Shown here one piece after another: positions 8,090 through 24,741 of a stretch of 64,000 nucleotides of DNA (position 1 is its first letter; each line of letters starts with the position of its first letter). The notes beneath the pieces are model-generated. The model made no database searches, had not been told where the DNA came from, and saw only the letters and a program-made list of their open reading frames with translations. Both the position numbers and the translations under genes were made by a program. The stretch spans positions 992,001-1,056,000 of the forward strand of contig NZ_CP110224.1 in NCBI RefSeq assembly GCF_026013645.1, written 5' to 3'. The stretch comes from Virgibacillus natechei (GTDB taxonomy: Bacteria; Bacillota; Bacilli; Bacillales; Amphibacillaceae).

Positions 8090-8190
8090 AATATGATTTC
8101 CTTTCTAAGGTATACTTCGTTTCTATTATTGGGCAGATTTTATCGTAGTTTAATGGGCAAGAAGCCCCCACTGAATGAAGTTTTACTTTA

Positions 8191-9042: not shown

Positions 9043-9680
9043 GATGGAATCTCCTCATTGATGGGACGTAACACTGCACGAACAGGACTACCGTCTGCAC
9101 CATGAATTGCTAAGGGAAGTGCTATTAGTTCATAATGCCCTGTATTGACATGATCCAGCATTACGTTTTCTAAAATATGAATGCCATTCCTGTAAAGGGC
9201 ATGATGTGTCTCTAAGTCTTTACTATCTGGAGCATCGACGGACGGAATATCTACACCAATTAATATGACGCCTTTCTCCTGTAAAAAACCTGCAATATCT
9301 GGGTCAAGATAAGGAAGTTTGTCAGGAAAATAGGCTGGGTTATTAGGCAACGAAGTATGTAAAAGGACTCGCGTTACATTTTCCCATTCAAATTCCTGTA
9401 ATACGTCGGCAGTAATCCAGTTCGTATGGCTAACATCAATGACCATTGCTTTTCCAATATAATGATCTATATTCAGTTGTTCCACTGTCTTACCATCTGA
9501 GTCATAATGAAATGGTGCATCGATATGTGTGCCAATGTGTAAACTAGCTGTCATTTGTCCGATGTTGGCAGATCCTGTTTCTTCCTTTGTAAACGTAGGG
9601 GAGTAGGAGAAAGGAGTATCTCCTGGAAATTGCGCAATATCATTCGTTAAAGGTTGTGAAATATCTATCCAGTTAGCCAT
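9039..9680 (-). CDS. kynB: kynurenine formamidase (cyclase-like, metal-dependent)
   Basis: Hydrolyses N-formylkynurenine to kynurenine and formate. The 213-residue protein has the cyclase-family metal site [13 protein letters not shown] (about residues 50-62), with two histidines and an aspartate as ligands, a conserved [18 protein letters not shown] start, [11 protein letters not shown] in the middle, and a [19 protein letters not shown] end typical of KynB. It overlaps kynU upstream by one base (TAATG arrangement) and kynA downstream by four bases, so all three genes form a tight operon. Length and context make the call firm; generic cyclase-family hydrolases are the only alternative. Confidence 0.95.
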
Positions 9681-10948
9681 TATGCAATGACACCTCGCTT
9701 ATTTTCAAATTTTTTATAACGCTCTTCATTCATAATTGTTTTCAGTATTTGTATCATCTGCCAAACTTCTTCAAATGTATTATACAAGGCAACAGGCGCA
9801 AGGCGAATGCCATTTGGATTACGGAAATCAGGAATCACGCCATCTGCTTTTAATGCTTTGCATATACGAGCGGCTTCTGGGTGTTCAAGGAAAACGTGAC
9901 CACCTCGTGTGTTATCATTTCTCGGGTTAGCGATTGTGAAGGTAAACCCCACTAATTCAGTTTCAACCAATTTCATTAAATAATTCGTTAGCTGGAGCGA
10001 TTTTTGGCGTATTTTATTTATCCCAGCTTCTTGAAACATTTCTAAGGATCCAAGTAATGGCGCGGCACTTAATACGTTCGGTGTTCCAATTTGGTATGCA
10101 CTTGCATCGTCAGCCGGTGTGAGTGTATGGTCCATATCGAATTGTTTTTCCTTTGATGAGCTAAACCATCCTGCGAGGCCTGGATCATTGCCAAAGTGCT
10201 TTTCATTTACATACAGACCCCCGACACTTCCAGGTCCTCCATTCAAGTGTTTATACGTACACCAAAAGGCAAAATCGACACCCCAGTCTATTAATTGATG
10301 GGGGATAGATCCAATCGAATGGCACAGATCAAATCCAATTAAAATACCGCGTTTATGTGCTTCTTTTGTTAAGGTCTGCATATCTAAAATTTGTCCACTG
10401 CGATAGAGTATGCTTGGCAATACAATTAATGCGACATCGTCTGTCATAGCATCAATTATATCCTGTGTATCGAGTGTGTTATTAGTGCTCTTAACCTGAA
10501 TCAAATGCTCTTCAGGGTCCAGTCCCTTTTGCTTCAGTTGGCTCTTAAGTGCATATATGTCTGAAGGGAAATTCAGTTCATCGGCAAGGATTTTCGTTTT
10601 ATTTCCTTCAGGTTGGAAAAAGCTCGCAACGAGTTGATGAAGGTTGGTTGTCGTGGAACCTGTTACGATAACTTCTTCTGGCTTAGCACCAACTAAGGAA
10701 GCAGACATTTTACCAAGTTTCTCGGATAAGTAAAACCATGGATGTGTTCCTTCTGTCCATCCATCTATTGCATGCATTTTCCAGGATTCCATAATTGTAT
10801 CGACGGCTTGTTCTGCCCGTATTGACAGGAGTCCCAATGAGTTACCATCAAAATAAATCGTGTCCTTCGGGATATAAAATTCGTTGCGGTAATGCTTAAG
10901 TTCGTCTTGTGCGTCTAAATGTCGTGCGTGTTTAATCCCAGTATTCAT
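9680..10948 (-). CDS. kynU: kynureninase
   Basis: PLP enzyme that splits kynurenine into anthranilate and L-alanine. The 422-residue protein has the N-terminal [16 protein letters not shown] block, a fold-type I aminotransferase core, the phosphate-contact [13 protein letters not shown] segment, the aspartate in GFDLCHSIG and the PLP lysine in [13 protein letters not shown] (about residue 237). ATG at 10948 is chosen because AAGGAGG ends ten bases before it; an upstream in-frame GTG overlaps that ribosome site. It is the first gene of the operon, so the operon runs opposite to pathway order. With kynA and kynB it converts tryptophan to anthranilate. No anthranilate-degrading gene is nearby. 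Confidence 0.95.
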
Positions 10949-11249
10949 TCTCAGCACACCTCCTTTTCGGTTAGGTTATAGTATCATTCTAACAAATGTT
11001 TCTATTTTCGCGTAAGGAAAACTGTGAAAGGCAAAAATGTATTTAATCGCTGGATTCATTATATTCGAATAATAGTGATCTTTATTTAAATAATATAGGT
11101 TATAAGAAATGAGGCGTTCATTTCTTTGTTAAATATTGCAAATAATAAGACGATGTTTTATGCTAGTGTTAGGTAGTTGAAATGTGGTTTGATTTATTGA
11201 AATAGATAGGTTGGTACGTCATTTATGTAATCGGTTTCATTTGCCGAGA
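10949..11249. other. kyn operon upstream region, no gene seen
   Basis: AT-rich, with many stops in all frames. It should hold the kynU promoter on the minus strand. A TATAAT lies about 110 bases upstream of kynU, but I see no matching -35 at normal spacing, no T-box core and no regulator gene, so I do not mark a promoter. Confidence 0.6.
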
Positions 11250-11803
11250 AGGCTCTTTTCGTAAGGATTGTTACTTTTAGATCTTCTTAGTTGATATAAA
11301 GTGCGACGTAACTACTGTCTGCTATAAGTATTTGCTATAATCGCCGTTCGGGGTCGCTACGGGCGGATGCTTTCCGCGGGCACGGCTTTGCCCTGGCAAA
11401 GGGTATGTCGACGTTGTTCGCAAAGAACGGTTTTAGTCGACCTTCCTTAGGATAATGCTGCGGGGTCTTCAGACTCGTGCTGGGGCTGCGCGTAAATGCT
11501 CGCCCCACCGAAAACCATTGTTCCCGCAGGAGTCACCGCCCTTCGCTCACCCGAACTGGTGAGGTGGTTCGTTGTTTTGAATATTGATTACTAATGCTAT
11601 TTAGCGGCAGTAATACCAGCGGAGGAAACACATGAAGACTCCTGCGGGAGGAAAGGCCTCGGTGAGACCCCGCAGTGCGCCAGCACAAGGAGGCTCACCA
11701 GCCGCCCGCGGAAAGCGAAATGTGTTTCCGTAGCGAATCTCCGCTCTCAACCAGTGTTTGCAAAAGAATTCTCACTGCGTCGTCTACTATTGATTTTGTG
11801 TTT
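11250..11803. repeat. GC-rich inverted-repeat intergenic element, long copy A
   Basis: This stretch is much more GC-rich than its surroundings and lacks a plausible gene. Its left end (GTTGATATAAAGTGCGACGTA near 11290) reappears inverted at the right end of copy B (57979-58535), and its right end (near 11760-11803, with CAAAAGAATTCTCACTGCG) matches the inverted left end of copy B. Inside are inverted GCTTTCCGCGGGC modules (about 11369 and 11705), a CCCGCAGGAGTCACCGCCC / ACTCCTGCGGGAGG pair (about 11523 and 11638), and a GTCGAC-bounded module. The whole can fold on itself and looks like a non-autonomous, MITE-like sequence. Confidence 0.75.
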
Positions 11804-11894
11804 AGAAAACTTGGCATTCGTTAAAGGGATTCTTAGAAAGTGTTCTTTGCTTTGTAAGAAACCCTTATGCTTTGGAGTGCGAGCTTTTAATGGC

Positions 11895-11952
11895 GAGTGC
11901 CTTAGTTACACTTATGCAGTAGGAAAGTTTTCCTGTCTGCCAAAAACAAAAA
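11895..11952. repeat. short shared module with CTTATGCA and GGAAAGTTTT
   Basis: Contains GCCTTAGTTACACTTATGCA followed by TAGGAAAGTTTTCCTG, closely matching a copy at 48718-48770 and more loosely sequences at 36815-36840 and 63660-63715. It is non-coding and of unknown role. Confidence 0.6.
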
Positions 11953-11959
11953 TCATTTA

Positions 11960-12351
11960 GAAAATAGCCATCAAGAAAAACGCCCTTATACTTGTACAAT
12001 GCTGCGGCTTATGACCTCGTGACACTCGATTATTATAAGGTTTCGAGCGTGTTATAAGTCTCTGGCGCCAAGGGTACTGCGGTTGAATGTGGATCATTAT
12101 CCAAAAGTCTCAACATGAACTGGATGGTCGGGAATAAGGAAGTTTTACAAGCATTAGCGACTTTCGGCATTGATGCAGAAAAACCAAGTGGAACGATATT
12201 TCTTTGAGCTAAAGTTCCTGACGGGTATTATTCCATTGATTTAACGAATAAGCTATAGGGTGAAGCTGATGTTATTGTTACTCGAGAACAGCCTTTGGGG
12301 ATTCTCGTGAAGAAGGTTATTTTAGGATAGCGTTACGGTAACAACAGATAG
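11960..12351 (+). pseudogene. decayed PLP aminotransferase (class I, DapL/aspartate aminotransferase-like)
   Basis: Conceptual translation gives the C-terminal half of a class I aminotransferase. AAYDLVTLDYYK corresponds to the PLP-tyrosine region, GSLSKSLNMNWMVGN to the PLP-lysine region (usually SLSKTYNMTGWR-GFAVGN), and AKVPDGYYSIDLTNKL to the family WAPVPEGY-type segment. In-frame stops occur after SSVL, after TIFL, after NKL and after VILG, about 90 residues are missing between the PLP lysine and the C-terminal segment, and a frameshift lies near 12000, so no active protein can be made. It lies about 50 bases upstream of the ThDP enzyme, in the position of the aminotransferase that the lysine route needs. 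The exact substrate of the ancestor is inference. Confidence 0.75.
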
Positions 12352-12399
12352 CAGTACAGCGTCTTTAACAAGCTTAATTTGAATGGAGGTCAGTTGCTC

Positions 12400-14043
12400 G
12401 TGAAAATGACCGCAGCTCAAGCAATTATAGAATGTATGAAAAAAGAGGGTGCTCGAAAGACGTTTTGCGTGCCTGGTGAAAGTTATTTACCTGTTCTTGA
12501 TGCGTTACATGATGAACCTACCATTGATGTAATTTCAGCCAGACATGAAGGCGGGGCTGCATTTATGGCAGAAGGGTATGCAAAAGCTGCTTTAAAGGCG
12601 GGCATTGTGCTTGCTACAAGAGCAGTTGGTGCAGCGAATTTGTCCATCGGTGTACATACGGCCTACCAAGATTCCACACCAATGATCGTTTTCTTAGGGC
12701 AGGTTCATCGTAAAGTCAGGGGGAGAGAAGGGTTTCAAGAAGTGGATTTAGTCAGGTATTTCGAGCCTATTGCGAAATGGACCACAGAAGTCAGTGATCC
12801 TGAACGTATACCAGAAATCGTTCAGCGCGCGTTTCGGATTGCACAATCAGGTAGACCAGGTCCTGTCGTCATTTCATTGCCGGAAGATGTTTTGCCACAA
12901 GAAGCAGAAATGGAATTTGGGCCTGTCACAGTTATTCCGAAGCCTGCACCATCGCAGACAGAAATAGCACGCGTTGAAGAACTTCTTAAAACAGCAAAAA
13001 AACCATTAATTATAGCTGGGGGAGGGGTGAAAAGTGCTCGAGCGGAAGAGGATTTGATTCGTTTTGCAGAGAAGTACAACATACCCGTCGTTGCAGCATT
13101 TCGTCGTCATGACGCATTTCCACATGATCACCCCTCCTATGTAGGTCATCTTGGCCTTGGTACGAATAAAGAAATTCTGAAAACTGTAGAAGAAGCAGAT
13201 GTCATTCTGGCACTGGGTACAAGGCTTTCAGAAGTGACGACGCAAGACTATTCGATTATAACACCGGCTAAAAGATTGATTCATGTAGCAATTGATTATG
13301 ACACGATTGGTAAAGTTTACCCACCGGAAATTGGGATCGTTGCTGACTTAAAAGAGGCATTACAGCTGTTCATTCATATGGAGGTAGATGGGGACTGGGG
13401 GAGCTGGATTAATGAAAGGCGAAAAGCATATGTGAATATAAGTCGTTTGAATGTTTCAGATAATGATGTAATCAATAAACATATTGTCGCTATCATGGCG
13501 AAACATCTTCCCAAAAATGCGCTTCTAACAACAGATGCAGGTAACTTTGCAGGGTGGCTTCATGGTTTCTATCCATTCCGTGAAAAACATACGTATGTTG
13601 GTCCGACTTCAGGGGCAATGGGTTATGGGATGCCTGCAGCACTAGGGGCGAAGCTTGCTTTTCCAGAAAAAATAGTCGTTTCGTTATCTGGAGATGGTGG
13701 ATTTATGATGACAAGTCAGGAACTGGAAACAGCTGTGAGAAATAATATTCCTGTCATATGTCTTGTTTTTAATAATAATATGTATGGTACCATCCGTATG
13801 CATCAAGAAATGCATTATCCGGAAAAAGTAGAAGCGACCGATTTAGGTGACGTTTCGTTTAAGGATTTAGCAATTAGTGTTGGAGCTGACGGATATGCCG
13901 TAAATACGATAGCGTCATTTGAAATAGCATTGGAAAAAGCAATGACTAGCGAAAAACCATCCGTGATCGAAATTATAACGGATAAAGAGCAAATTTCTGT
14001 TTCATCAACGATTACAGAAATCCGTAGCCGGAATCTGAAATAG
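12400..14043 (+). CDS. ThDP-dependent decarboxylase-like enzyme, candidate 2-oxoadipate decarboxylase
   Basis: A 547-residue enzyme of the acetolactate synthase/benzoylformate decarboxylase family. It has the catalytic glutamate in ISARHEGGAAFMAEGYAK (about residue 50), a central nucleotide-fold domain (LIIAGGGVKSARAEEDL, about 205), and the ThDP/Mg2+ motif GDGGFMMTSQE to VFNNNMYG (about 432-465). GTG at 12400 is preferred because GGAGGT ends nine bases upstream; TTG at 12394 and ATG at 12406 are possible. It lies about 80 bases before an aldehyde dehydrogenase, with lysine dehydrogenase next. A non-oxidative decarboxylation of 2-oxoadipate to glutarate semialdehyde would link the two operons of this region. 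The family is certain, the substrate is inferred, and a synthase activity is not excluded. Confidence 0.85.
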   Translation: MKMTAAQAIIECMKKEGARKTFCVPGESYLPVLDALHDEPTIDVISARHEGGAAFMAEGYAKAALKAGIVLATRAVGAANLSIGVHTAYQDSTPMIVFLGQVHRKVRGREGFQEVDLVRYFEPIAKWTTEVSDPERIPEIVQRAFRIAQSGRPGPVVISLPEDVLPQEAEMEFGPVTVIPKPAPSQTEIARVEELLKTAKKPLIIAGGGVKSARAEEDLIRFAEKYNIPVVAAFRRHDAFPHDHPSYVGHLGLGTNKEILKTVEEADVILALGTRLSEVTTQDYSIITPAKRLIHVAIDYDTIGKVYPPEIGIVADLKEALQLFIHMEVDGDWGSWINERRKAYVNISRLNVSDNDVINKHIVAIMAKHLPKNALLTTDAGNFAGWLHGFYPFREKHTYVGPTSGAMGYGMPAALGAKLAFPEKIVVSLSGDGGFMMTSQELETAVRNNIPVICLVFNNNMYGTIRMHQEMHYPEKVEATDLGDVSFKDLAISVGADGYAVNTIASFEIALEKAMTSEKPSVIEIITDKEQISVSSTITEIRSRNLK

Positions 14044-14123
14044 TAGTAATGCGTGTTCGGAAGGGGGACGGACTTTTTGAACGTGCTCTATTAATAAAAT
14101 TTCTATATAGGAGGTATTTTTTC

Positions 14124-15620
14124 ATGACAGTCGTATCATTGGAAACAAACAAACTAGCAAACTATATTAACGGAGAATGGGTAGATATAAGGAATGCTGC
14201 ATTAGTGCTTAATCCGGCAACAAGAGAAACGATTGTGGAGGTACCGCTATCGGACGCATCGAGCGTGGATCATGCTGTCTCTGCTGCTAAGAAAGCCCAA
14301 AAGGATTGGGCGTTAGTTCCTGCACCACAACGTGCTGAAGTACTCTATCAAGTTGGTTATCTAATGAAAGAACGTAAAGAGAGGCTTTCTCAGTTATTGA
14401 CGATGGAAAATGGGAAGGTTCTGGAAGAAGCGCGTGGAGAGGTACAGGAAGGTATTGATATGGCCTTTTATATGGCGGGTGAAGGACGTCGTCTCTTTGG
14501 GCAGACGACACCAGCCGAATTGAACGATAAATTTGCTATGAGCCAACGCTCTCCAGTTGGTGTGGTTGGGATTATTACGCCATGGAACTTCCCGATTGCT
14601 ATCGCAACATGGAAGTCGTTCCCTGCGATTGTTTCCGGTAATGCAGTGATCTGGAAGCCTGCGACTGAAACACCGATTATGGCCCATGAACTTGCGAAGA
14701 TATTTGAAGAGGCAGGGTTGCCTAAAGGCTTATTGAATGTCGTCTTTGGTGCTGGTTCTACCGTTGGAGATGCAATGGTTCAACATCAGGATATTCGTGT
14801 TATTTCATTTACAGGTTCGGATGTGACAGGTCGAACTATTGCTAGTGAGTGCGGAAAGCAGTTGAAGAAAGTATCCCTTGAAATGGGTGGGAAAAATGCT
14901 GTTATTGTCATGGATGATGCTGACTTGGATCTGGCTGTGGAAGGTATCTTATGGAGTGCGTTTGGTACGAGTGGACAGCGCTGCACAGCCTGTAGTCGTG
15001 TTATCGTGCATGAAAAGGTAAAAGAAACGCTGGAGGAGCGCTTACTTGCAGCGATGGAAAAATTGACTATTGGTAATGGGCTTGACGAATCGAATAAAGT
15101 TGGGCCAATTATTAATAAAGCTGGCATGGATAAAATTAAGGAATACATGGAAATCGGAAGGGAGGAAGGTGCTAAATTACTTGCTGGTGGTTATGTGTTG
15201 AATGAAGGAGAGCACGGGAAAGGAAATTACTTTGCACCAACACTATTTTCGGATGCTACTTCCGACATGCGCATTGCTCAGGAAGAAATCTTCGGACCAG
15301 TTGTTTCCTTAATTTCAGTCCCAAATTTTGAAGAAGCGATTGAAGTAAATAATGGGGTGACATTTGGACTTTCAAGCTCGATATTCACAAGTGATGTCAA
15401 TCGTGTATTTAAAGCACAGCGCGATTTGGATACTGGAATTGTTTACGTGAATGCAGGTACTACTGGAGCGGAAATTCATTTGCCGTTTGGTGGAACAAAA
15501 GGTACAGGGAATGGTCATCGTGATTCAGGTGTGCAGGCACTGGATGTATTTACGGAATGGAAAGCGATTTACGTAGACTACAGTGGAAAATTACAACGCG
15601 CACAGATTGATGTAGATTAA
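14124..15620 (+). CDS. aldehyde dehydrogenase, candidate 2-aminoadipate 6-semialdehyde dehydrogenase
   Basis: A 498-residue NAD(P)-dependent aldehyde dehydrogenase. It shows TPWNFPIAIATWK (about residues 150-162), VIWKPATETP, the SFTGSDVTGRT nucleotide loop, the general-base glutamate in SLEMGGKNA (about 257) and the nucleophilic cysteine in GTSGQRCTACSR (about 291). The start is set by AGGAGG nine bases upstream of ATG 14124; a longer frame from 14049 is unlikely. It sits between the ThDP enzyme and lysine 6-dehydrogenase, whose product is aminoadipate semialdehyde. Oxidising that aldehyde to 2-aminoadipate is therefore the most likely role. Family certain, substrate inferred. Confidence 0.88.
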   Translation: MTVVSLETNKLANYINGEWVDIRNAALVLNPATRETIVEVPLSDASSVDHAVSAAKKAQKDWALVPAPQRAEVLYQVGYLMKERKERLSQLLTMENGKVLEEARGEVQEGIDMAFYMAGEGRRLFGQTTPAELNDKFAMSQRSPVGVVGIITPWNFPIAIATWKSFPAIVSGNAVIWKPATETPIMAHELAKIFEEAGLPKGLLNVVFGAGSTVGDAMVQHQDIRVISFTGSDVTGRTIASECGKQLKKVSLEMGGKNAVIVMDDADLDLAVEGILWSAFGTSGQRCTACSRVIVHEKVKETLEERLLAAMEKLTIGNGLDESNKVGPIINKAGMDKIKEYMEIGREEGAKLLAGGYVLNEGEHGKGNYFAPTLFSDATSDMRIAQEEIFGPVVSLISVPNFEEAIEVNNGVTFGLSSSIFTSDVNRVFKAQRDLDTGIVYVNAGTTGAEIHLPFGGTKGTGNGHRDSGVQALDVFTEWKAIYVDYSGKLQRAQIDVD

Positions 15621-15680
15621 TATAGGAATGTGTAAGATCTCTTGTTCAGGTTTGATTAATTTTTCACAGGGAGGAATTGC

Positions 15681-16853
15681 ATGAAAATCGGTGTATTAGG
15701 TTCAGGCTTAATGGGAAAAGAAGCTGCACGTGATTTAATAGATAGTAATGGTGTAACAGCTGTTGGTTTAGCAGATATTGATCTAACCCGTGCACAGCAA
15801 GTTGTTGATCAATTACATTCATCTAAACTGACTGCATATCAAGTGAATGCAAGTGATGAAATGGAATTGGCAACATATATGCGGCAATTTGATGTGATTA
15901 TTAATGCACTATTTTACTCCTTTAATGAGACCGTTGCAAAAGTGGCAATTCAAGTAGGCGTGAATTCGGTTGATCTTGGTGGACATATTGGTCATATGAC
16001 AGACCGGGTGTTAGCACTGAAAGAAGATGCAAAAGCAGCAGGTGTTACGCTCATTCCAGATCTAGGTGTTGCACCAGGTATGATTAATATTTTATCGGGA
16101 CACGGAGCTAGCAAACTAAACCAATTAGAATCTATAAAATTGTATGTAGGCGGAATTCCTGTTAAACCAGAGGCCCCAATTGAATATAATCATGTATTTT
16201 CAATGGAAGGGGTTTTTGACCATTATACAGATCCCTCCCTCATTATTCGAAATGGAATTAAACAAGAAATCTCCTCTTTGACAGAGGTAGAGCGCGTTTA
16301 CTTTAAACAATTTGGCCCGTTGGAAGCATTCCATACTTCAGGCGGGACATCAACATTATCCCTATCCTACCCTAATTTAAAAACATTGGAGTATAAAACA
16401 ATTCGTTATCCTGGTCATGCTGAGAAATTCAAATTACTAGTGGATCTAAACCTGACCAAGGCGGATTATGAAGTCGATGTAAATGGGCAAAAAATTAAAC
16501 CACGCGAAGTATTCCTTAAAGTGTTGGATCCGATCGTTGAACTAGGGGAGAAAGACGATGCAGTCTTATTAAGAGTGGTGGTTTCTGGCGAAAAAGAAGG
16601 GAAACCAGCAACCTATGAATATGAAATGACAACTTATAAAGATAGAAATACAAATGTAACCGCAATGGCTCGAGCTACTGCGAATACAATATCCGTTGTT
16701 GCTCAAATGATTGGGACTGGAACCATTTCCCAAAAAGGTGTTTATCCACCAGAGAAAATTGTTATTGGCGATACGTATATGAAGGAAATGGAAAAGCGTG
16801 GCGTAACGATTACAGAAACAGAAAGTGTAGAAAAACCCTGGGTAAATACGTAA
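15681..16853 (+). CDS. lysDH: L-lysine 6-dehydrogenase (saccharopine dehydrogenase-like fold)
   Basis: A 390-residue NAD-dependent enzyme that oxidatively deaminates the epsilon-amino group of L-lysine to 2-aminoadipate 6-semialdehyde, which cyclises to piperideine-6-carboxylate. The N-terminal Rossmann motif is [15 protein letters not shown] (about residues 5-19). [30 protein letters not shown] and [11 protein letters not shown] are strongly like the characterised Geobacillus lysine 6-dehydrogenase, which I recall as the closest known relative, and the length is similar. A GGGAGG ribosome site precedes ATG at 15681. It follows the aldehyde dehydrogenase by 60 bases in a common operon. This gene anchors the lysine interpretation of the cluster; saccharopine dehydrogenase proper is less likely because of the close whole-length likeness. 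Confidence 0.88.
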
Positions 16854-16857
16854 ATGA

Positions 16858-16892
16858 TTTCCCTCTGCTTTTTGGTAGAGGGAGTTGCTTTT
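16858..16892 (+). terminator. possible weak terminator after lysDH
   Basis: CCCTCTGC and GTAGAGGG form a short stem followed by TTGCTTTT. The interrupted T run makes it weak, so read-through into the DUF3870 gene is likely. Confidence 0.4.
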
Positions 16893-17016
16893 AGGATAAA
16901 AATCGAAGCAAAGGATAGACGAAAAGAAAATACTTTAATAGTGAAAGTCGTATCTAATCATGATCGGGTTATCAAGAAGAATTTAAACCACTAAAAGATG
17001 AAGGAATGATTATAAA

Positions 17017-17325
17017 ATGAATACTGTATTTATTGCAGGACATGCACGCCTCCCTTCAGGAATGGCTGCAAAAAGTATATACGAAACCTTAACGATAACA
17101 GCGGAAATAGACAAGAAATATGGTGTAGTCGTAACAGCCAGTTGCACATTGGCGACCGTTCATGGTAGAGAATTTGTTCAACAACTACTTCGTGGCCATA
17201 GTTTACAAGATGGCATCGATAAACCAGTGGAAGAAATAAAAGAACATTACTTAGGAAAAGCTGGTGGCGCTCTAGCTTCAGCATTGAAGGATTTGTATAA
17301 GCAGTATGAGGGGTATATTGCATGA
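17017..17325 (+). CDS. DUF3870 family protein
   Basis: A 102-residue protein with the DUF3870 pattern. FIAGHARLPSGMAAKSIYETL at the start (all but one residue conserved in my memory of the family), VVVTASCTLATVHGREFV in the middle and HYLGKAGGALASALKDLYKQY at the end. The conserved cysteine in ASCTLAT and the small size suggest a ligand-binding or accessory role, but no function is established to my knowledge. It is the last gene of the plus-strand lysine cluster, 163 bases behind lysDH, with a modest GAAGGA ribosome site. The association with amino-acid catabolism here may hint at its role. Confidence 0.8.
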   Translation: MNTVFIAGHARLPSGMAAKSIYETLTITAEIDKKYGVVVTASCTLATVHGREFVQQLLRGHSLQDGIDKPVEEIKEHYLGKAGGALASALKDLYKQYEGYIA

Positions 17326-17349
17326 ATAATCACGTGGATCGATAGAACC

Positions 17350-17480
17350 TCAGGTCGACTCGAGAGCAGCCCCAGGTCGACTCGAGAGCAGCCCCAGGTC
17401 GAGCATTAGAACGCTTTTCGCTTGAGCAGGAGAGGTTGTCGCTCGAGTAAGACTCGTCCTCGCTCGAATGAGCAGCAACA
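17350..17480. repeat. 22-bp tandem repeat and degenerate TCGA-rich array
   Basis: CAGGTCGACTCGAGAGCAGC recurs with a 22-base period from 17351, two full copies and a partial third to about 17404. It is followed by looser units (CGCTTGAGCAGGAG, CGCTCGAGTAAGAC, CGCTCGAATGAGCAG) to about 17480. Non-coding and unlike the neighbouring composition. Confidence 0.8.
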
Positions 17481-17515
17481 TTCGAAACTCGCGCGGTAGC
17501 ATCGCGTCCCCACAA

Positions 17516-17550
17516 AAAAAGCGATCCAAATCAATCAAGGATCGCTTTTC
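17516..17550. terminator. bidirectional terminator between the two catabolic operons
   Basis: AAAAGCGATCC and GGATCGCTTTT pair around an eleven-base loop, with an A run before and T residues after, so it can end both the plus-strand operon (to 17325) and the minus-strand operon (to 17554). Confidence 0.85.
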
Positions 17551-17553
17551 AAA

Positions 17554-18993
17554 TTAGCTTATTCCAATCGATACAAATTTCTTTTCTAGAAATTCATCCA
17601 TTCCGTGATGTCCGCCTTCTTTGCCGTTTCCGGATTGCTTTATTCCGCCAAATGGTGCTTCCGCAACGGCAGGGAAGACGTCATTTATGCCAACAATGCC
17701 GAATTCTAATTTTTCGGAGGCGCGAATGGCCTGATTTGTGCTTTCTGTAAAAATATACGCAGCTAAACCATAATCTGTATCATTCGCTTTGTGTAAAACT
17801 TCTTCCTCATCCCGAAATGTTTGTATGGGTATAATCGGGCCGAATGTCTCCTCGTTCATAATCAGCATATCATCTGAAACATTGGTGAGAACAGAAGGGT
17901 TGTAGAAGCAGCCTTCCAAATTACCTTCCCATTCACCACCACCAACGACAACCTGTGCGCCTTTTTCGATAGCATCCTTAAGGTGTGATTGGACTTTTTC
18001 CAGAGCCTGTTGATTGATCAGTGGCCCAAGATCAACATCTTCTTCCAGACCAGAGCCAACTTTTAATTGGGAGACTTTTTCGGTAAGTAATGCTGTAAAT
18101 TGGTCGGCAATCGATTCATGCACATACAAACGGTTGGTACAAATACAGGTTTGCCCATTATTTCTGAATTTGCTAGCTAATACTAGATTGGTAGCCAGGT
18201 CGATATCTGCATCGTCAAAAACAATACTGGGTGCATGGCCACCAAGTTCAAGTGAAAGCTTCTTTACATGCTCGGCGCTTTCCCGCATTAAGTATTTTCC
18301 CACCGCAGTAGAACCTGTGAATGTCAATAATCGTACGTCTTTGTCTAAAAGCAGTGCATTTCCAATTGCTTGAGCATCACCAGTTACTAAATTAACAACA
18401 CCTTCAGGCATTCCAGCACGATCGAAAATCTTTATAATTTCAATTGCTGATAATGGTGTCTCAGGCGCGGGTTTTAATACTACCGTACATCCAGCCGCTA
18501 AAGCAGGGCCAATTTTTCGTGTGACCATGGAAGAGGGGAAATTCCAAGGTGTGATCGCACCGACAACTCCTACAGGTTGTGGAATAACAAGCATTCGTTT
18601 TGATTTAATGGAGGAGGGGATCCACTCCCCATAGCCTCTGCTAGCTTCTTCTGCGTACCATAATAAAAAGTTCGCAGCACCTTTCACTTCACCTATTGCT
18701 TCATTTAAAGGCTTTCCTTGTTCTAATGTTAAAATTTCTCCTAGTCGATCGGCTTCTTCTAACATAAGTTGAGATGCTTTGTATAAAACACGTGAACGCT
18801 GTCGGCCTGTCATGTCACTCCACACGGTAAATGCCTTAGAGGCAGCCTGAATTGCTATCTCCGTTTCTTGAGCTCCACCATATGCAACCTCCGTAATTGG
18901 TTCTAGTGTAGTAGGATTATATATGGTTTCTTTCTCCTGAACATCGATCCATTTACCACCAATAAAAATACTCTTTGTTTGTTTGTCAAACAT
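17554..18993 (-). CDS. GabD-type semialdehyde dehydrogenase, candidate glutarate semialdehyde dehydrogenase
   Basis: A 479-residue aldehyde dehydrogenase of the succinate/glutarate semialdehyde group. Visible are TPWNFPSSMVTRKIGPALAA (about residues 143-162), VVLKPAPETPLSA, the TFTGSTAVGKY loop, the glutamate in SLELGGHAPSIVF and the nucleophile in NNGQTCICTNRLYVH (about 278), the last being typical of GabD. The start at 18993 follows GGGAGGT by ten bases; the frame opens at 19017, but that ATG precedes the ribosome site. It lies 27 bases behind the acyl-CoA dehydrogenase in the same operon. Conversion of glutarate semialdehyde to glutarate, feeding the CoA-transferase, is inferred from the operon; succinate semialdehyde is the alternative substrate. 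Confidence 0.88.
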   Translation of the reverse strand: MFDKQTKSIFIGGKWIDVQEKETIYNPTTLEPITEVAYGGAQETEIAIQAASKAFTVWSDMTGRQRSRVLYKASQLMLEEADRLGEILTLEQGKPLNEAIGEVKGAANFLLWYAEEASRGYGEWIPSSIKSKRMLVIPQPVGVVGAITPWNFPSSMVTRKIGPALAAGCTVVLKPAPETPLSAIEIIKIFDRAGMPEGVVNLVTGDAQAIGNALLLDKDVRLLTFTGSTAVGKYLMRESAEHVKKLSLELGGHAPSIVFDDADIDLATNLVLASKFRNNGQTCICTNRLYVHESIADQFTALLTEKVSQLKVGSGLEEDVDLGPLINQQALEKVQSHLKDAIEKGAQVVVGGGEWEGNLEGCFYNPSVLTNVSDDMLIMNEETFGPIIPIQTFRDEEEVLHKANDTDYGLAAYIFTESTNQAIRASEKLEFGIVGINDVFPAVAEAPFGGIKQSGNGKEGGHHGMDEFLEKKFVSIGIS

Positions 18994-19020
18994 TACATCC
19001 GATACCTCCCAATGCATAAG

Positions 19021-20226
19021 TTATTTTACTGTTTCTGGATTTCCCCATGCTGGCAGCATTTTATTTAACTGCTTATCCTGGCGATATCCTAACACGTACT
19101 CTGCTTGCATAACTGTATGGATCTCACGAGTCCCTTCATAAATGACAGGTGCTTTGGAATTGCGCAAATACCTTTCAACTGGATACTCATCGGAATAGCC
19201 GTAGGCACCATGAACCTGAACAGCGTCATCAGCAGCTTTATTAGCAAAATCACATGCCTGCCATTTTGCCAGAGATGTTTCTCGAGTGTTTCGCTTCCCT
19301 TGATTTTTTAATTCACCTGCACGATAAACAAGCAAGCGGCTCATTTGTAGTCCTGCTTCCATGTTAGCAATCATTTGTTGTACCAACTGATGCTTCCCAA
19401 TTTCTTTACCAAATGTCTCGCGTTCATGACAATATTTCACACTGGCTTCCAGACATGCCATAATCTGTCCAACTGCACCTGCCGCAACCGTGAACCTTCC
19501 ATTATCAAGTGCTGCCATTGCAATTTTGAAACCTTCACCTTCTTCACCAAGCAGATTTTCTTTTGGTACCTTTACATGATCAAAGAAGATTTCGCCAGTA
19601 TTACCAGAACGAATGCCATGTTTTCCTTTGATAGCTTTTGAAGAAAACCCTTCCCATGTACGTTCGACAATAAATGCTGAAATCCCTTTATGTTTTTCCG
19701 ATTTGTCTTTCGTATAGGCAAAAACTAAAAAATGATCGGCTGTATCGCATAAGGAAATCCATGTTTTTTGGCCATTTAAAATATAGTAATCGCCTTCCTG
19801 AACGGCAGTTGATTGTAAGGCGGAAACATCGGATCCAGCTCCTGGCTCAGTCAGTCCGAATGCACCAAGTTTTTCTCCTTTTGCTTGTGGAGTGAGGTAC
19901 TTTTTCTTTTGTTCTTCGTTCCCCCATTGGAGCAATGTCATGCTGTTTAACCCAGTGTGAACAGATACCGCAGTTCGAAATGTGGTGTCTCCACGCTCTA
20001 ACTCTTCACAAACAATCGCGAGTGAATTATAATCCATTCCACTTCCGCCATATTCTTCGGGTATACAGACTCCCATTAATCCTAGGTCTGCAAGCTTCGG
20101 CAGGATAGATGGATCAAATCTTCCCTCGCGATCCCATTCAGCTATATATGGCATAATTTCCTTATCTGTAAAACTTCTCACGGTATCTCGCAATATTGCT
20201 TGTTCTTCAGTAGATTCAAAATTCAT
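19021..20226 (-). CDS. acyl-CoA dehydrogenase, candidate glutaryl-CoA dehydrogenase
   Basis: A 401-residue FAD enzyme of the acyl-CoA dehydrogenase family. It has the IPEEYGGSGMDYNSLAIV block (about residues 55-72), FAD-contact GLTEPGAGSDVSALQS and TWISLCDTADHFLVF segments, RETFGKEIGKHQLVQQ, QVHGAYGYSDEYPVERYLR and the catalytic-glutamate region IYEGTREIHTVMQAEYVLG. Start ATG 20226 is preferred since AGGGAG lies eight bases upstream and abuts the ATG at 20235. It follows the CoA-transferase by 24 bases. Dehydrogenation and decarboxylation of glutaryl-CoA to crotonyl-CoA would complete the proposed lysine route; this substrate is inferred from the neighbours, and a short-chain acyl-CoA dehydrogenase is the alternative. 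Confidence 0.85.
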   Translation of the reverse strand: MNFESTEEQAILRDTVRSFTDKEIMPYIAEWDREGRFDPSILPKLADLGLMGVCIPEEYGGSGMDYNSLAIVCEELERGDTTFRTAVSVHTGLNSMTLLQWGNEEQKKKYLTPQAKGEKLGAFGLTEPGAGSDVSALQSTAVQEGDYYILNGQKTWISLCDTADHFLVFAYTKDKSEKHKGISAFIVERTWEGFSSKAIKGKHGIRSGNTGEIFFDHVKVPKENLLGEEGEGFKIAMAALDNGRFTVAAGAVGQIMACLEASVKYCHERETFGKEIGKHQLVQQMIANMEAGLQMSRLLVYRAGELKNQGKRNTRETSLAKWQACDFANKAADDAVQVHGAYGYSDEYPVERYLRNSKAPVIYEGTREIHTVMQAEYVLGYRQDKQLNKMLPAWGNPETVK

Positions 20227-20250
20227 TCTAGTCATCTCCCTAAATTTAAT

Positions 20251-21402
20251 TTATTTTACAATCCCTAAACGGCTGAATATATCTTCATTATGCTCTCCTG
20301 CATTTGGTGGGTGATGGTTCATCGATACTGGTGTTCGTGATAACTTTAATGGACTTCCTATCATATTAATTGCACCAGCAGTAGGGTGTTGATAATGAAT
20401 AAACATATTTCTCGCTTTTAATTGTGGATCCTTTGCCACTTCTTCAATCGTATGAATGGGTCCACATGGTATGTTATTTTCCTGGCATTTTCCCTGCCAG
20501 TAGGCTGTTGTTTTCGTTGAAAAAATATCTTGTAGTAACGGGACTAAATCCGCTCGATGCTGTACCCTGTCTGGATTTGATTGAAATCTTTTATCTGTAC
20601 TTAATTCCGTTTTTTCTAAAACAGTACACAATGCCTTGAACTGATTGTCGTTACCTACTGCAATGACCATTTCCCCATCTAACGTTTTGAAGGTTTGGTA
20701 CGGGACAATATTGGCGTGATGATTACCAAGTGCTGTAGGTGTTTTTCCTGACATTAAATAATTACTGCCGATATTCACAAGGGAACTTACTGCAGAATCA
20801 TACAACGAAAGATCTAACTTTTGACCTTTACCGGATATAGTACGTTCCAGTAAAGCACTTTGAATGCCAATACAGGCATATAACCCTGTTAGAATATCCG
20901 TAATGGCTACCCCTAGTTTTTGTGGACCTGAATCTTCATCGCCTGTTATACTCATTAATCCACTCATTGCTTGAATAATAAAATCATAGCCTGGCATGTC
21001 CTTATAGGGACCTGTTTCTCCAAACCCCGTAATGGAGCAATCTACAATTCCAGGATTAATTTGAGCAAGTGTCTCGTAATCCAGTCCAAACCGTTCCATG
21101 GTGCCAGACTTGAAATTATTAACGATGACATCGCTTTCGGTGACGAGTTTCTTAATGATTTCTATTCCTTCATCTGTCTTTAAATCAACCGTAATACTCT
21201 TTTTATTACGGTTAGCAGATAGGTAATAGGCACTTACATCGTTTTGAAAGGGTGGCCCCCATCTACGTGTCTCATCACTTCCGCCGGGAGCTTCAACTTT
21301 AATTATTTCTGCCCCCAGGTCACCTAGAATCATGGTACAGTATGGACCCGCAAGAACACGCGATAAATCTAGCACTCTAATATTCCCCAGTGCACCATTC
21401 AT
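20251..21402 (-). CDS. CaiB/BaiF (class III) CoA-transferase, candidate for glutarate activation
   Basis: A 383-residue class III CoA-transferase, an interlocked dimer that moves CoA between carboxylic acids through aspartyl-CoA intermediates. The family start RVLDLSRVLAGPYCTMILGD is nearly complete, followed by EIIKVEAPGGSDETRRWGPP, SANRNKKSITVDLKT, VDCSITGFGETGPYKDMPGYD (the last split as two motifs in the family) and the catalytic-aspartate region GVAITDILTGLYAC. Human SUGCT, which activates glutarate, belongs to this family. AAGGAG precedes ATG 21402. It is the first gene of the minus-strand operon and sits behind a sigma-A promoter and a leader with a terminator. The glutarate role is inferred from the acyl-CoA and semialdehyde dehydrogenases downstream. 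Confidence 0.86.
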   Translation of the reverse strand: MNGALGNIRVLDLSRVLAGPYCTMILGDLGAEIIKVEAPGGSDETRRWGPPFQNDVSAYYLSANRNKKSITVDLKTDEGIEIIKKLVTESDVIVNNFKSGTMERFGLDYETLAQINPGIVDCSITGFGETGPYKDMPGYDFIIQAMSGLMSITGDEDSGPQKLGVAITDILTGLYACIGIQSALLERTISGKGQKLDLSLYDSAVSSLVNIGSNYLMSGKTPTALGNHHANIVPYQTFKTLDGEMVIAVGNDNQFKALCTVLEKTELSTDKRFQSNPDRVQHRADLVPLLQDIFSTKTTAYWQGKCQENNIPCGPIHTIEEVAKDPQLKARNMFIHYQHPTAGAINMIGSPLKLSRTPVSMNHHPPNAGEHNEDIFSRLGIVK

Positions 21403-21425
21403 TATGTCACTCCTTCCATGTAGAT

Positions 21426-21488
21426 ACTAAAAAAAGCCAATTCAAATTGATTACAGTACTTCTGCAATTCAACTATGAACTGGCTTTT
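21426..21488 (-). terminator. intrinsic terminator inside the 5' leader of the CoA-transferase operon
   Basis: On the minus strand AAAAGCCAGTTC pairs with GAATTGGCTTTT (one mismatch) across a loop of about 33 bases and runs into seven T residues. It ends about 25 bases before the CoA-transferase start, between promoter and gene, so it is an attenuator candidate. Confidence 0.75.
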
Positions 21489-21603
21489 ATCTGTTGGAAC
21501 GACTCCAGAATTAGAACCGTGAACAGATTAGGCAGCATTATAATTTTTTAAGCGATCATGTGTGATAAACGTGGATGCGTTTTAAACATGATTCATTATT
21601 TTC

Positions 21604-21632
21604 ATTATACATTATTCTGAATAAAGTGTAAA
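21604..21632 (-). promoter_or_regulatory. sigma-A promoter of the glutaryl-CoA operon
   Basis: On the minus strand TTTACA (21632-21627), a 17-base spacer and a perfect TATAAT (21609-21604). Transcription would begin near 21597 and give a leader of about 195 bases before the CoA-transferase ATG. Confidence 0.8.
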
Positions 21633-21656
21633 TGTTTTGTGAAAAAATAGAATCTT

Positions 21657-22010
21657 CTACACTCGAGTCGTGAAGGATGCAGTGATGGTTTCGGATAAAT
21701 CAATATTTTTCTTTAATTCTTCAAGTAATTGATTCATTTCGTCGTTATGATTAACCTGATTTTTAACATCCTCATAATGAGACTTGTTGCGATAAATACT
21801 TTGTCCGAAGAAAATTTGTTCATTGTTGTTGACACTTATAAGACTATGTAGACCATTGCAACCATGGTGTCCGTCTAAATTATCGACATGATAAATTGTT
21901 TTTTCTAAAGTACCATTTAGTAAGTGAATTTCATTAATCCTATCCCTAATATCAAGAAATATTTCTACATTCTCTTTCTTAACCCGGTATAAGTGAATAA
22001 CTGTATACAT
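21657..22010 (-). CDS. DUF1428-like / dimeric alpha-beta barrel protein
   Basis: A 117-residue protein beginning MYTVIHLYRVKKENVEIFL, a beta strand followed by a helix, with a second strand region NEQIFFGQSIYRNKSHYEDV and a C-terminal helix DEMNQLLEELKKN before ETITASFTTRV. This layout matches the ferredoxin-like dimeric alpha-beta barrel of DUF1428 and antibiotic-biosynthesis-monooxygenase-type proteins, and the IYRNKSHYEDVKNQV stretch resembles the DUF1428 core. No catalytic residues can be named. It is preceded by a GGGGGTG-type ribosome site and ends just before the promoter of the CoA-transferase operon on the same strand. The function is unknown. Confidence 0.6.
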   Translation of the reverse strand: MYTVIHLYRVKKENVEIFLDIRDRINEIHLLNGTLEKTIYHVDNLDGHHGCNGLHSLISVNNNEQIFFGQSIYRNKSHYEDVKNQVNHNDEMNQLLEELKKNIDLSETITASFTTRV

Positions 22011-22115
22011 TTCACGTCACCCCCACTATGCTTTCTCTAAAAGTAGTTCGATATAAAAGAGAAAATTCCTTTAAATTATCTAAGAAACTTGTAAGAAGGT
22101 GGTTTAGAAAAAAAT

Positions 22116-22151
22116 AAAAATGCTCGTGCACGGAAGGCATGAGCATTTTTA
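22116..22151. terminator. bidirectional hairpin terminator downstream of mreBH
   Basis: AAAATGCTCGTGC and GCATGAGCATTTT form a stem with one mismatch and a seven-base loop; T runs exist on both strands, the longer on the minus strand, about 70 bases after mreBH. Confidence 0.75.
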
Positions 22152-22222
22152 AGTAGTTTGAGGATTGGTCGACGACACTAGTACGTCCTGTACATCGTCA
22201 CCCCGTACGGATGAGTTTTCCT

Positions 22223-23236
22223 TTATTTTGCAGCTTTTTGCAGTTTTTCAATCATTTTTAAGGCACGACCCGTCCCAATAGCAACAGATTCAAGTGGGGT
22301 TGGAGCAAGGTGTACAGGGACGAATATTTCATTTGCTAGCCATTCCTGCATACCTGCTAAGAGAGAGCCACCACCAGTTAGAACAATTCCGTGATCGACA
22401 ATATCACCACTTAATTCGGGTGGGCAACTTTCTAATGTAGAACGAACTGTTTCTAAAATATGCTCCAGTGATTCCTTCAAAGCATAATATATCTCGGTAG
22501 AAGTTATGGTAATCGTTTTTGGTAACCCAGTAACCATATCTCGTCCTCGTATTTCCATTGTTTCTTCTTTGTGATTCTTGTGTGCATAGCCGATTTCCAT
22601 CTTAATATTCTCAGCCGTACGTTCACCAATTAGTATATTATAGTTTTTGCGGATATGTTGGATAATTTCCTCGTCCATTTTGTCGCCACCTGTGCGAACA
22701 GAGTTACATGATACAACGCCACCAAATGAAATAATACCTACTTCAGAAGACCCCCCGCCAATATCGACAATAACATTTGCGGTAGGTTCATCCACAGGAA
22801 GATCAGCACCAATTGCTGCTGCGACAGGTTCTTCTATTAAATGAACCTGTTTAGCGCCGTAACTTGTTACAGCATTATGAATGGCTCGTCTTTCTACGGA
22901 GGTACTTCCCGAAGGCGTACAAACAACAACAGTCGGCTTGCGCATGGACGAGCCAACTTTCTTGCTTACTTTTTTCAAAAATTCCTTCAGCATTTGTGCG
23001 GTTACATCGTAATCAGCTATAACGCCGTCTCTTAAGGGGCGTATCGGGACAATGTTCTGTGGTGTTTTTCCGACCATTTCTTTAGCTTCCGTGCCAACGG
23101 CTACTACTTGTTTTGTATTGATATTAATGGCCACTACAGATGGCTCATTTAAGACAATTCCTTTTGTTTTTGAATAGATAAGAATATTAGCTGTACCTAA
23201 ATCAATCCCCAGTTCAGCGTTAGATAACATAGACAT
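22223..23236 (-). CDS. mreBH: MreB-like actin homologue MreBH
   Basis: A 337-residue bacterial actin that forms membrane-bound filaments guiding lateral cell-wall synthesis; in B. subtilis MreBH helps position the hydrolase LytE. Visible nucleotide-binding motifs are [14 protein letters not shown] (phosphate 1, about residues 9-22), [17 protein letters not shown] (phosphate 2) and [17 protein letters not shown] (adenosine). [16 protein letters not shown] and [20 protein letters not shown] are typical of the family. The solitary location, without mreC or mreD, and closeness to B. subtilis MreBH over the whole length favour MreBH over MreB or Mbl. Start ATG 23236 follows TTGGAGGA by seven bases; the TTG at 23251 overlaps that ribosome site. 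Confidence 0.9.
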
Positions 23237-23673
23237 GTTGTGATCCTCCAATGATGACAGTTTACTTACATATAAATTCTATCATATTTCATGATTTATG
23301 GGGGTGTGTGCATACGTTACACTTTTTGGTAATAAGCGCACTTCTCCCTATACGACCTTCATTTAAAATAAAGCATGTAACGGGCGATATCAAGTAACAA
23401 TTCAATGACAGTTTTGGAATTCTTGTAATAAAACAAGGTAGTTAGAAAGGGTGTCAATGGTAATTCTATTGTAATTTTTACCAGTACGTTAATTTTTTTC
23501 CTATACACTTGAATTCAGTTCGTTTCATATCTTTGAAAATAAAAGGTTTTTGAGTCGTAGAAATGGAAGAAAACCCCTCTATATATACCTTGGAAAAGAC
23601 TGCCACAATTATTACAAAAAACTCGTGCTATGATGATTTTGCAAAACAAAACAAAAGGAGAGTGTGCAAAGAA
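23237..23673. other. divergent intergenic region, no gene seen
   Basis: AT-rich region of about 440 bases between mreBH and the CAP-protein gene. A frame open to 23563 extends the CAP gene upstream but lacks a ribosome site. It must hold both promoters; I cannot assign either with confidence. Confidence 0.6.
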
Positions 23674-24741
23674 ATGTTTAAAAAATTAAGCATAGCTACG
23701 GCATTATCAACCGCATTATTAGTAAGCGGAGCTTTTCAGACTTCTGTTGACGCATCAGAAAGTGCCGATAAGTCACAAGTTCTATCATATAACGTCTATT
23801 ATTCTGTGAATGGGAATTGGAATTCATTTTCAGAAGGTAATATAACTGGATTTTTAACTGGTATTTTTAATAAATTCCAATTAAACGAAAATACAGTTCA
23901 ACAGAATGATGAAGCAAAACAAGAAGATTCAGAGCCAAAAGAGGAACAACCGGCTAAGGAAGAAGAATCAGAACCAAAAGAGGAACAACCGGCTAAGGAA
24001 GAAGAATCAGAACCAAAAGAGGAACAACCGGCTAAGGAAGAAGAATCAGAACCAAAAGAAGAACAACCGGCTAAGGAAGAAGAATCAGAACCAAAAGAAG
24101 AACAACCAGCTAAGGAAGAAGGTTCAGAACCAAAAGAAGAGCAACCAGCTAAGGAAGAAGGTTCAGAACCAAAAGAAGAGCAACCAGCTAAGGAAGAAGA
24201 TTCAGAGCCAAAAGAAGAACAACCGGCTAAGGAAGAATCAGAACAAACAGAGGAGCAATCCGATCAAAATGAAGCACCAGTAGAACAACCGGAAGCTCCA
24301 GCACCACAGCAACCATCTAATAACCAGGAACAGCAAAACCAAAATCAAGAGCAATCTCAACAATTAAATCAATTTGAACAAGAAGTGGTAGATTTAACAA
24401 ACCAGGAACGTGCAAATCATGGTCTAAGCGCACTTGAAATTGATGAAGAATTAAGTAACGTAGCTCGCGATAAATCAGCCGATATGGCAGATAGCAATTA
24501 TTTTTCACACGATAGTCCAACACATGGTTCACCGTTTGATATGATGGATAGCTATGGAGTAGATTACCGCACTGCTGGTGAGAACATCGCCAAAGGCCAA
24601 CAAACTCCAGCTGAAGTTGTAGATGGATGGATGAATAGTGATGGGCACCGTGCCAATATCTTAAGTGAGGACTTTACGCATATTGGAGTAGGGTATGTAG
24701 AACAAGGTAATCACTGGACACAGCAATTTATAGGCAAATAA
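23674..24741 (+). CDS. secreted CAP/SCP domain protein (YkwD-like) with acidic repeat linker
   Basis: A 355-residue exported protein. The signal peptide (MFKKLSIATALSTALLVSGA, about residues 1-27) is followed by about 55 residues of mature N terminus, then eight tandem 13-residue repeats of SEPKEEQPAKEE type, a Gln/Pro-rich spacer (QQPSNNQEQQNQNQ) and a C-terminal CAP domain of about 125 residues. The CAP domain has LTNQERANHGLSAL, the histidine in YFSHDSPTHGSPF, AGENIAKGQQTPAEVVDGWMNSDGHRAN (two family signatures) and GVGYVEQGNHWTQQFIG, as in YkwD and the spore-coat related family. Start ATG 23674 has AAAGGAG upstream. It probably acts at the cell wall; the CAP role in Bacilli is not well defined. 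Confidence 0.9.
   Translation: MFKKLSIATALSTALLVSGAFQTSVDASESADKSQVLSYNVYYSVNGNWNSFSEGNITGFLTGIFNKFQLNENTVQQNDEAKQEDSEPKEEQPAKEEESEPKEEQPAKEEESEPKEEQPAKEEESEPKEEQPAKEEESEPKEEQPAKEEGSEPKEEQPAKEEGSEPKEEQPAKEEDSEPKEEQPAKEESEQTEEQSDQNEAPVEQPEAPAPQQPSNNQEQQNQNQEQSQQLNQFEQEVVDLTNQERANHGLSALEIDEELSNVARDKSADMADSNYFSHDSPTHGSPFDMMDSYGVDYRTAGENIAKGQQTPAEVVDGWMNSDGHRANILSEDFTHIGVGYVEQGNHWTQQFIGK
23923..24234 (+). repeat. eight tandem 39-bp repeats inside the CAP-protein gene
   Basis: Eight in-frame 39-base units, nearly identical, each coding 13 residues of the type E-(E/D/G)-S-E-P-K-E-E-Q-P-A-K-E. Third-position changes group neighbouring units, which suggests recent local duplication. Confidence 0.95.

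Follow-up and report, generated by a model that had tools for sequence, protein, structure and literature searches.

Six enzyme genes at positions 12,400-21,402 of a 64,000-nucleotide stretch of contig NZ_CP110224.1 (hereafter the window), part of the single-contig, 3.87 Mb genome of Virgibacillus natechei, raise the question of whether lysine could be degraded to crotonyl-CoA by way of a thiamine diphosphate (ThDP)-dependent decarboxylation of 2-oxoadipate. An initial annotation had proposed that two converging operons encode such a route completely, with one enzyme fitting each step. The operons themselves were borne out: all six genes lie where they had been placed, are open and complete, and form two convergent sets of three, and the Pfam domains agree with the class assigned to each enzyme. 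We consider it probable that these genes specify all or most of a pathway for lysine catabolism that proceeds through ThDP-dependent decarboxylation, with every activity and substrate predicted. The enzyme set and its co-occurrence in relatives uphold the proposed route, but it is not complete here, as an aminotransferase is present only as a remnant. None of the three findings that the initial annotation had named as counting decisively against it was obtained: the ThDP enzyme lies apart from the acetolactate synthases in a quick tree, the acyl-CoA dehydrogenase has an arginine and a Tyr-Glu pair known from glutaryl-CoA dehydrogenases, and the two operons occur together in relatives. The assignment of one enzyme per step also fails, since seven conversions had been listed for six enzymes and the conversion of 2-aminoadipate to 2-oxoadipate had been passed over. 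The features concerned are as follows.

About 11986-12365, + strand: remnant of a class I aminotransferase gene (tblastn with the aminotransferase of relatives, best 44% identity, E 7e-26)
12400-14043, + strand: ThDP enzyme, PRK08199 subfamily, proposed 2-oxoadipate decarboxylase (NF006052, tree, residues, context); GTG start at 12400, the open reading frame itself opening at 12379
14124-15620, + strand: aldehyde dehydrogenase ALDH1, proposed 2-aminoadipate semialdehyde (piperideine-6-carboxylate, P6C) dehydrogenase (Pfam Aldedh; adjoins LysDH in relatives)
15681-16853, + strand: LysDH, lysine 6-dehydrogenase of saccharopine-dehydrogenase fold (PF03435, PF16653; substrate-site residues)
17554-19017, - strand: aldehyde dehydrogenase ALDH2, succinate-semialdehyde dehydrogenase (SSADH)/GabD type, proposed glutarate semialdehyde dehydrogenase (TIGR01780, just under cut-off)
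19021-20235, - strand: acyl-CoA dehydrogenase, proposed glutaryl-CoA dehydrogenase (GCDH) (Arg87, Tyr366-Glu367; alignment to 3mpi)
20251-21402, - strand: CaiB/BaiF CoA-transferase, proposed succinyl-CoA:glutarate CoA-transferase (NF052585 best model; 9br6 match)

In the proposed route, LysDH would convert lysine to 2-aminoadipate semialdehyde (P6C), from which ALDH1 would form 2-aminoadipate. An aminotransferase, whose gene in relatives immediately precedes that of the ThDP enzyme, would then yield 2-oxoadipate, which the ThDP enzyme would decarboxylate non-oxidatively to glutarate semialdehyde. ALDH2 would take the semialdehyde to glutarate, the CoA-transferase would make glutaryl-CoA from glutarate and succinyl-CoA, and the acyl-CoA dehydrogenase would complete the conversion to crotonyl-CoA.

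Relationship of the ThDP enzyme to acetolactate synthases

The ThDP enzyme passes the subfamily model NF006052 (PRK08199) with 746 bits against a cut-off of 539, and its nearest named homologue among the matches listed is from Virgibacillus (83% identity). No cut-off for acetolactate synthase (acetohydroxyacid synthase, AHAS) was reached among the matches listed (25 of 60 models), the best of them, TIGR00118, giving 436.5 bits against 538.35. In a quick tree of 77 rows, which included 34 of 65 non-Bacillota loci, the enzyme fell within a clade of 69 rows (SH-aLRT 99) that excluded all 5 AHAS rows, namely E. coli IlvB and IlvI and three Bacillaceae AHAS; the tree has long outgroup branches, carries a long-branch warning and places a distant row, L236, inside the ThDP clade.

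Residues were compared across 32 Bacillota rows, 34 other rows and the 5 AHAS rows. E27, R74, H86, R235, N382, T464, I465 and P474 are invariant in the first two groups and differ in every AHAS row, while H468 is kept in 31 of 32 Bacillota and 34 of 34 other rows, at a position where AHAS has W (4) or Q (1). The acceptor arginine of AHAS (R in 5/5 rows) gives way to V (29) or I (3) in the 32 Bacillota rows and to varied residues elsewhere, and the acceptor lysine position is mostly E in the ThDP family. We take this arginine, lysine and tryptophan to serve the acceptor site in AHAS. The window enzyme has V279 at the arginine site and H468 at the tryptophan site, the AHAS residues being absent, and its family-invariant residues are intact. 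We infer that R74, H86, R235 and H468 may bind the distal carboxylate of the substrate; the arginine at 235 is undiagnostic alone, because E. coli PoxB likewise has one there.

The simplest reading is that the ThDP enzyme is a putative non-oxidative 2-oxoadipate decarboxylase giving glutarate semialdehyde. Among the papers listed from the open-licence literature we found no report of a ThDP-dependent 2-oxoadipate decarboxylase in lysine catabolism, which is weak evidence of absence, and none is named in the available portions of PMC5653290 and PMC9007349.

Conservation in related genomes

Co-occurrence was assessed in 146 genomes of the family, with orthologues called by a score line of our own. 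The ThDP gene was present in 68, LysDH in 83, the CoA-transferase in 72 and the aminotransferase in 67. Every one of the 68 ThDP genomes also carried LysDH and the CoA-transferase, and 63 carried the aminotransferase, the window's genome being among the five that did not. The 83 LysDH genomes divide into 68 with both ThDP and CoA-transferase genes, 4 with the CoA-transferase only and 11 with neither. As p-values for co-occurrence are inflated by shared ancestry, our conclusion rests on this pattern.

Gene neighbourhoods were compared in 80 LysDH genomes; of the full 83, three were left out, among them the window's own. ALDH1 adjoins LysDH in 79 of the 80, and all seven enzymes, aminotransferase included, occur in 36. 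The acyl-CoA dehydrogenase and CoA-transferase were both found in 49 of the 59 neighbourhoods with a ThDP gene. The co-occurrence predicted for the two operons is thus present in relatives, and the gene order is not a product of chance because it recurs in them. A class I aminotransferase is present in 57/80 neighbourhoods and in 55 of the 59 with ThDP, directly upstream of the ThDP gene; the median gap is -1 base, with 53/55 at 60 bases or fewer, when a gene is taken as its longest open frame, a definition that favours overlaps.

In seven LysDH genomes the ThDP gene lies away from LysDH. Genome G044 has a DAO-family oxidase gene followed by those for the aminotransferase, ThDP enzyme and ALDH1, and genes for an OCD-family protein and a CdaR-type regulator close by; G094 has a second ALDH1 copy in a set resembling that of G044, with a PutP-type symporter; and G077 has the DAO-type set with ThDP absent. 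The aminotransferase-ThDP pair is without DAO/OCD-type company in G109, G014 and G116. The second-best model for the OCD protein is pyrroline/piperideine-2-carboxylate reductase (200.3 bits, cut-off 322). The relocated ThDP sets may serve a pipecolate-type pathway that enters at the same semialdehyde. Identification of the DAO-type neighbours as L-pipecolate oxidase found no support: L125 and L122 gave 44.9 and 30.9 bits with that model, whose cut-off is 600, and for three DAO proteins from Proteobacteria no model matched at E 1e-40.

The ThDP gene outside the family

Named genomes were scanned for the ThDP gene and the best 80 of 590 confirmed places examined. At least one route-type gene lay near it in 14 of 15 Bacillota loci, LysDH in 11. 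The other 65 loci are nearly all Proteobacterial by title, and the reference proteins used on them came from four of these loci, which match by construction. A route-type gene was found within 8 kb in 27 of the 65: P6C dehydrogenase at 12, DAO at 10, GCDH-like at 9, CoA-transferase at 8, aminotransferase at 7, LysDH at 5 and SSADH at 1. In 26 of these 27, one such gene is co-directional and within 270 bases. The four P6C dehydrogenases scanned beside ThDP genes, from Acidovorax (L217), Microvirga (L195), an alphaproteobacterial bin (L173) and Bosea (L216), scored 805-817 bits, over the curated cut-off of 730. In Bosea, genes for P6C dehydrogenase, a GCDH-like protein, CoA-transferase and ThDP enzyme stand in series. 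The proposal that a ThDP decarboxylase acts on 2-oxoadipate gains support from the neighbours at these Proteobacterial loci, insofar as context can predict a substrate.

The CoA-transferases of Bosea L216 and Maritalea L170 gave 588.4 and 605.2 bits with NF052585, under its cut-off of 750. No curated model was over cut-off for the Proteobacterial GCDH-like proteins, which are so named for an Arg/Tyr-Glu motif. Outside Bacillota the route partners come from subfamilies that differ from the window's, which leaves the ThDP enzyme as the constant element.

In Agrobacterium, biotin is made from lysine, 2-oxoadipate or glutarate and requires CaiB, which takes glutarate to glutaryl-CoA; the available part of that report (PMC7645780) names no enzyme for 2-oxoadipate to glutarate. 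The proposed window route has a like CaiB-type step. In Rhizobiales other than Agrobacterium, the ThDP gene lies right behind a caiB-type gene at five loci (one Phyllobacterium, three Mesorhizobium and one Pseudaminobacter), the ThDP match starting at most 30 bases from the caiB-type match; at L180 the two genes overlap by four bases. The ThDP enzyme could account for the unnamed step from 2-oxoadipate to glutarate that underlies biotin synthesis in Alphaproteobacteria. We regard as evenly poised the wider proposal that PRK08199 holds phylum-crossing, non-oxidative ThDP-dependent 2-oxoadipate decarboxylases, which would define a lysine (perhaps pipecolate) route via glutarate semialdehyde in Bacillota and Proteobacteria and supply Rhizobiales with glutarate for biotin via CaiB and BioZ. 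If true, this would assign a role to a large family in which the listed members carry the names acetolactate synthase or thiamine-pyrophosphate enzyme, extend the bacterial lysine 6-dehydrogenase route past 2-aminoadipate, and identify a candidate for the 2-oxoadipate-to-glutarate step that the work on biotin in Agrobacterium implies.

Two further sets of loci were observed. In Anoxybacillus flavithermus (L155, 3771-15517), a 4-aminobutyrate (GABA)-type aminotransferase over cut-off and a GucD-like dehydrogenase flank ThDP-ALDH1-LysDH, and three frames after the LysDH gene look by eye like EtfB, EtfA and ETF-quinone oxidoreductase. Another group of ThDP enzymes, with 47-51% identity to that of the window, occurs at L130 (8900-12051) beside an SSADH over its curated cut-off, at L161 beside a CoA-transferase and an acyl-CoA dehydrogenase, and at L131 (9615-11258), where no route gene was seen.

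Enzymes at the lysine and glutarate ends

LysDH carries the saccharopine-dehydrogenase NADP-binding and C-terminal domains (PF03435 and PF16653) over cut-off. Its best solved relative is PH1688 (3abi), which we take to be a lysine dehydrogenase. A homology model of Geobacillus stearothermophilus LysEDH, as given in the available part of PMC6697735, places V130, V172, F173, H181, Y238, T240 and R242 around the substrate, and all 7/7 are identical in the window's LysDH, with the same numbers. It is assigned as a lysine 6-dehydrogenase, with a predicted NAD-dependent epsilon-deamination.

At the glutarate end, NF052585 (succinate--glutarate CoA-transferase) leads the other models for the CoA-transferase by more than 130 bits, and the SUGCT structure 9br6 gave 346.6 bits. 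The residues expected of a glutaryl-CoA dehydrogenase are kept in the acyl-CoA dehydrogenase: Arg87 and Tyr366-Glu367 are invariant in 56/56 family rows. Arg87 aligns with an arginine of 3mpi (Desulfococcus glutaryl-CoA dehydrogenase) and of three Proteobacterial GCDH-like proteins and has no equivalent in 4l1f and 5ol2; at Tyr366-Glu367, 3mpi has Val-Glu. We presume, from the human decarboxylating glutaryl-CoA dehydrogenase, that such an arginine (Arg94) serves the distal carboxylate and that Tyr-Glu is typical of that enzyme.

Several observations weigh against the proposed route. Curated models that would name its enzymes stay below their cut-offs: the best for ALDH1, GucD, gave 527.6 bits (cut-off 770), with NF050084 (L-piperidine-6-carboxylate dehydrogenase) at 428.4 (730); TIGR01780 (succinate-semialdehyde dehydrogenase) gave 618.1 for ALDH2 (646.35); NF052585 gave 450.7 for the CoA-transferase (750); and for the acyl-CoA dehydrogenase NF045552 (Desulfococcus-type glutaryl-CoA dehydrogenase) gave 372 (470), the best model being acryloyl-CoA reductase at 388.7 (640). 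The aminotransferase of relatives has LL-diaminopimelate aminotransferases as its best models (PRK09276 subfamily, 513.3 bits, cut-off 507; DapC_direct equivalog, 511, cut-off 593.25), and its substrate is therefore inferred from context. Four genomes have the aminotransferase with no ThDP gene, and the CoA-transferase is missing from the fetched stretch in 10 of the 59 ThDP neighbourhoods, two of which have less than 3.5 kb of downstream sequence. Beyond the Bacillota, 38 of the 65 loci have no route-type gene nearby (15 are on stretches shorter than 17 kb), so the ThDP family may not be uniform. Finally, with the aminotransferase decayed, the window has no intact gene for 2-aminoadipate to 2-oxoadipate.

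The aminotransferase remnant

The remnant covers approximately residues 202-377 of 393; it has in-frame stops and an internal gap, and the N-terminal half is gone. Just before it, where the lost half would be expected, lies a GC-rich, palindrome-like sequence (11340-11735) that is repeated genome-wide. The 15-base core of the repeat, at 11704-11719, has 26 exact copies and 41 with one mismatch; a reversed control gave 0. With the gene decayed, this strain must either rely on another aminotransferase or be losing the route. A paralogous transaminase at 433.9 kb of the genome is 40% identical to the aminotransferase and scores 628 bits with PRK08068 (cut-off 494).

In another genome of the family (G050), a second aminotransferase-type copy with 53% identity was seen at L128 (9260-10432), beside what appear by eye to be genes for aspartokinase and dihydrodipicolinate synthase.

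Alternative explanations

A plain acetolactate synthase was set aside on the unreached AHAS cut-offs, the separate clade and the changed acceptor-site residues. The same three observations, the last being the change of arginine, lysine and tryptophan to V/I, mostly E, and His, make it highly improbable that an acetolactate synthase or other carboligase merely resides in the operon as the ThDP enzyme, and the genome has a separate AHAS match (two matches in G000). What such an enzyme would explain is the 36-37% identity to AHAS, the common fold and ThDP domains, the identical catalytic Glu50 and Gln113, and the frequent public annotation of homologues as acetolactate synthase. We likewise give little credence to an attack on lysine from its alpha end, in which the aminotransferase would form 6-amino-2-oxohexanoate, the ThDP enzyme 5-aminopentanal and ALDH1 5-aminovalerate, with LysDH or another enzyme leading to glutarate semialdehyde. 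The chemistry suits the same enzyme classes, such a route has been engineered with different enzymes (available part of PMC7900509), and the Anoxybacillus L155 cluster adjoins its GABA-type aminotransferase. However, LysDH retains the alpha-amino-acid site residues of the epsilon-deaminating enzyme, and outside Bacillota the ThDP gene adjoins P6C dehydrogenases over the curated cut-off and stands beside CoA-transferase or GCDH-like genes where no aminotransferase is present.

A third explanation concerns this strain and is compatible with a lysine route across the family: after loss of the aminotransferase, the V. natechei cluster may be a relic losing function, which we think possible but somewhat doubtful. 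Beside the remnant itself, the window is without the IclR-type regulator found in 54/80 neighbourhoods. Compared with relative G029, residues unique to the window outnumber those unique to the relative 61:18 in ThDP, ALDH1 and LysDH and 42:27 in five neighbouring genes (p 0.03; 39:23 and p 0.09 when two short or partial neighbours are omitted), a count that assumes equal time on both lineages. This excess hints at relaxed constraint on the three enzymes. Yet the remaining genes are open, the family-invariant ThDP residues are intact, and the transaminase at 433.9 kb could stand in for the lost aminotransferase.

Comparison with known systems

The proposed ThDP-dependent route shares parts with several described systems. 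It resembles the G. stearothermophilus LysEDH and aminoadipate pathway in the identical modelled LysDH site residues and the adjoining aldehyde dehydrogenase, but would go past 2-aminoadipate to crotonyl-CoA via the ThDP enzyme. The D-lysine route of Pseudomonas putida via HglS (DUF1338) runs through 2-oxoadipate (available part of PMC7286885), an intermediate in common with the proposed route. HglS is Fe(II)- and O2-dependent and makes D-2-hydroxyglutarate. It was found in 0/146 family genomes by a search whose control found it in E. coli and Deinobacterium. The mammalian 2-oxoadipate dehydrogenase complex also removes CO2 from 2-oxoadipate with ThDP (available part of PMC9367764). That complex is oxidative and gives glutaryl-CoA directly, in contrast to the single-chain, AHAS-fold enzyme, semialdehyde dehydrogenase and CoA-transferase proposed for the window.

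Neighbouring features

Between the two operons, at the end of the lysine operon, lies a gene for a DUF3870 protein (17017-17325, + strand; PF12986), kept in 64/80 neighbourhoods. No Rfam family reached its gathering score in 8000-24000. Consensus matches numbered 28 for promoters (27.0 in shuffles) and 7 for terminators (10.2); as these are not above shuffles, none is claimed. Among the papers listed for the structure match 'BbmA', none was relevant. Upstream, at 8191-10957, is what looks by eye like a kynurenine-type tryptophan operon, which is upstream in many relatives too, and 23563-24741 encodes a putative secreted protein containing an extensive stretch of EEQPAKEEESEPK repeats.

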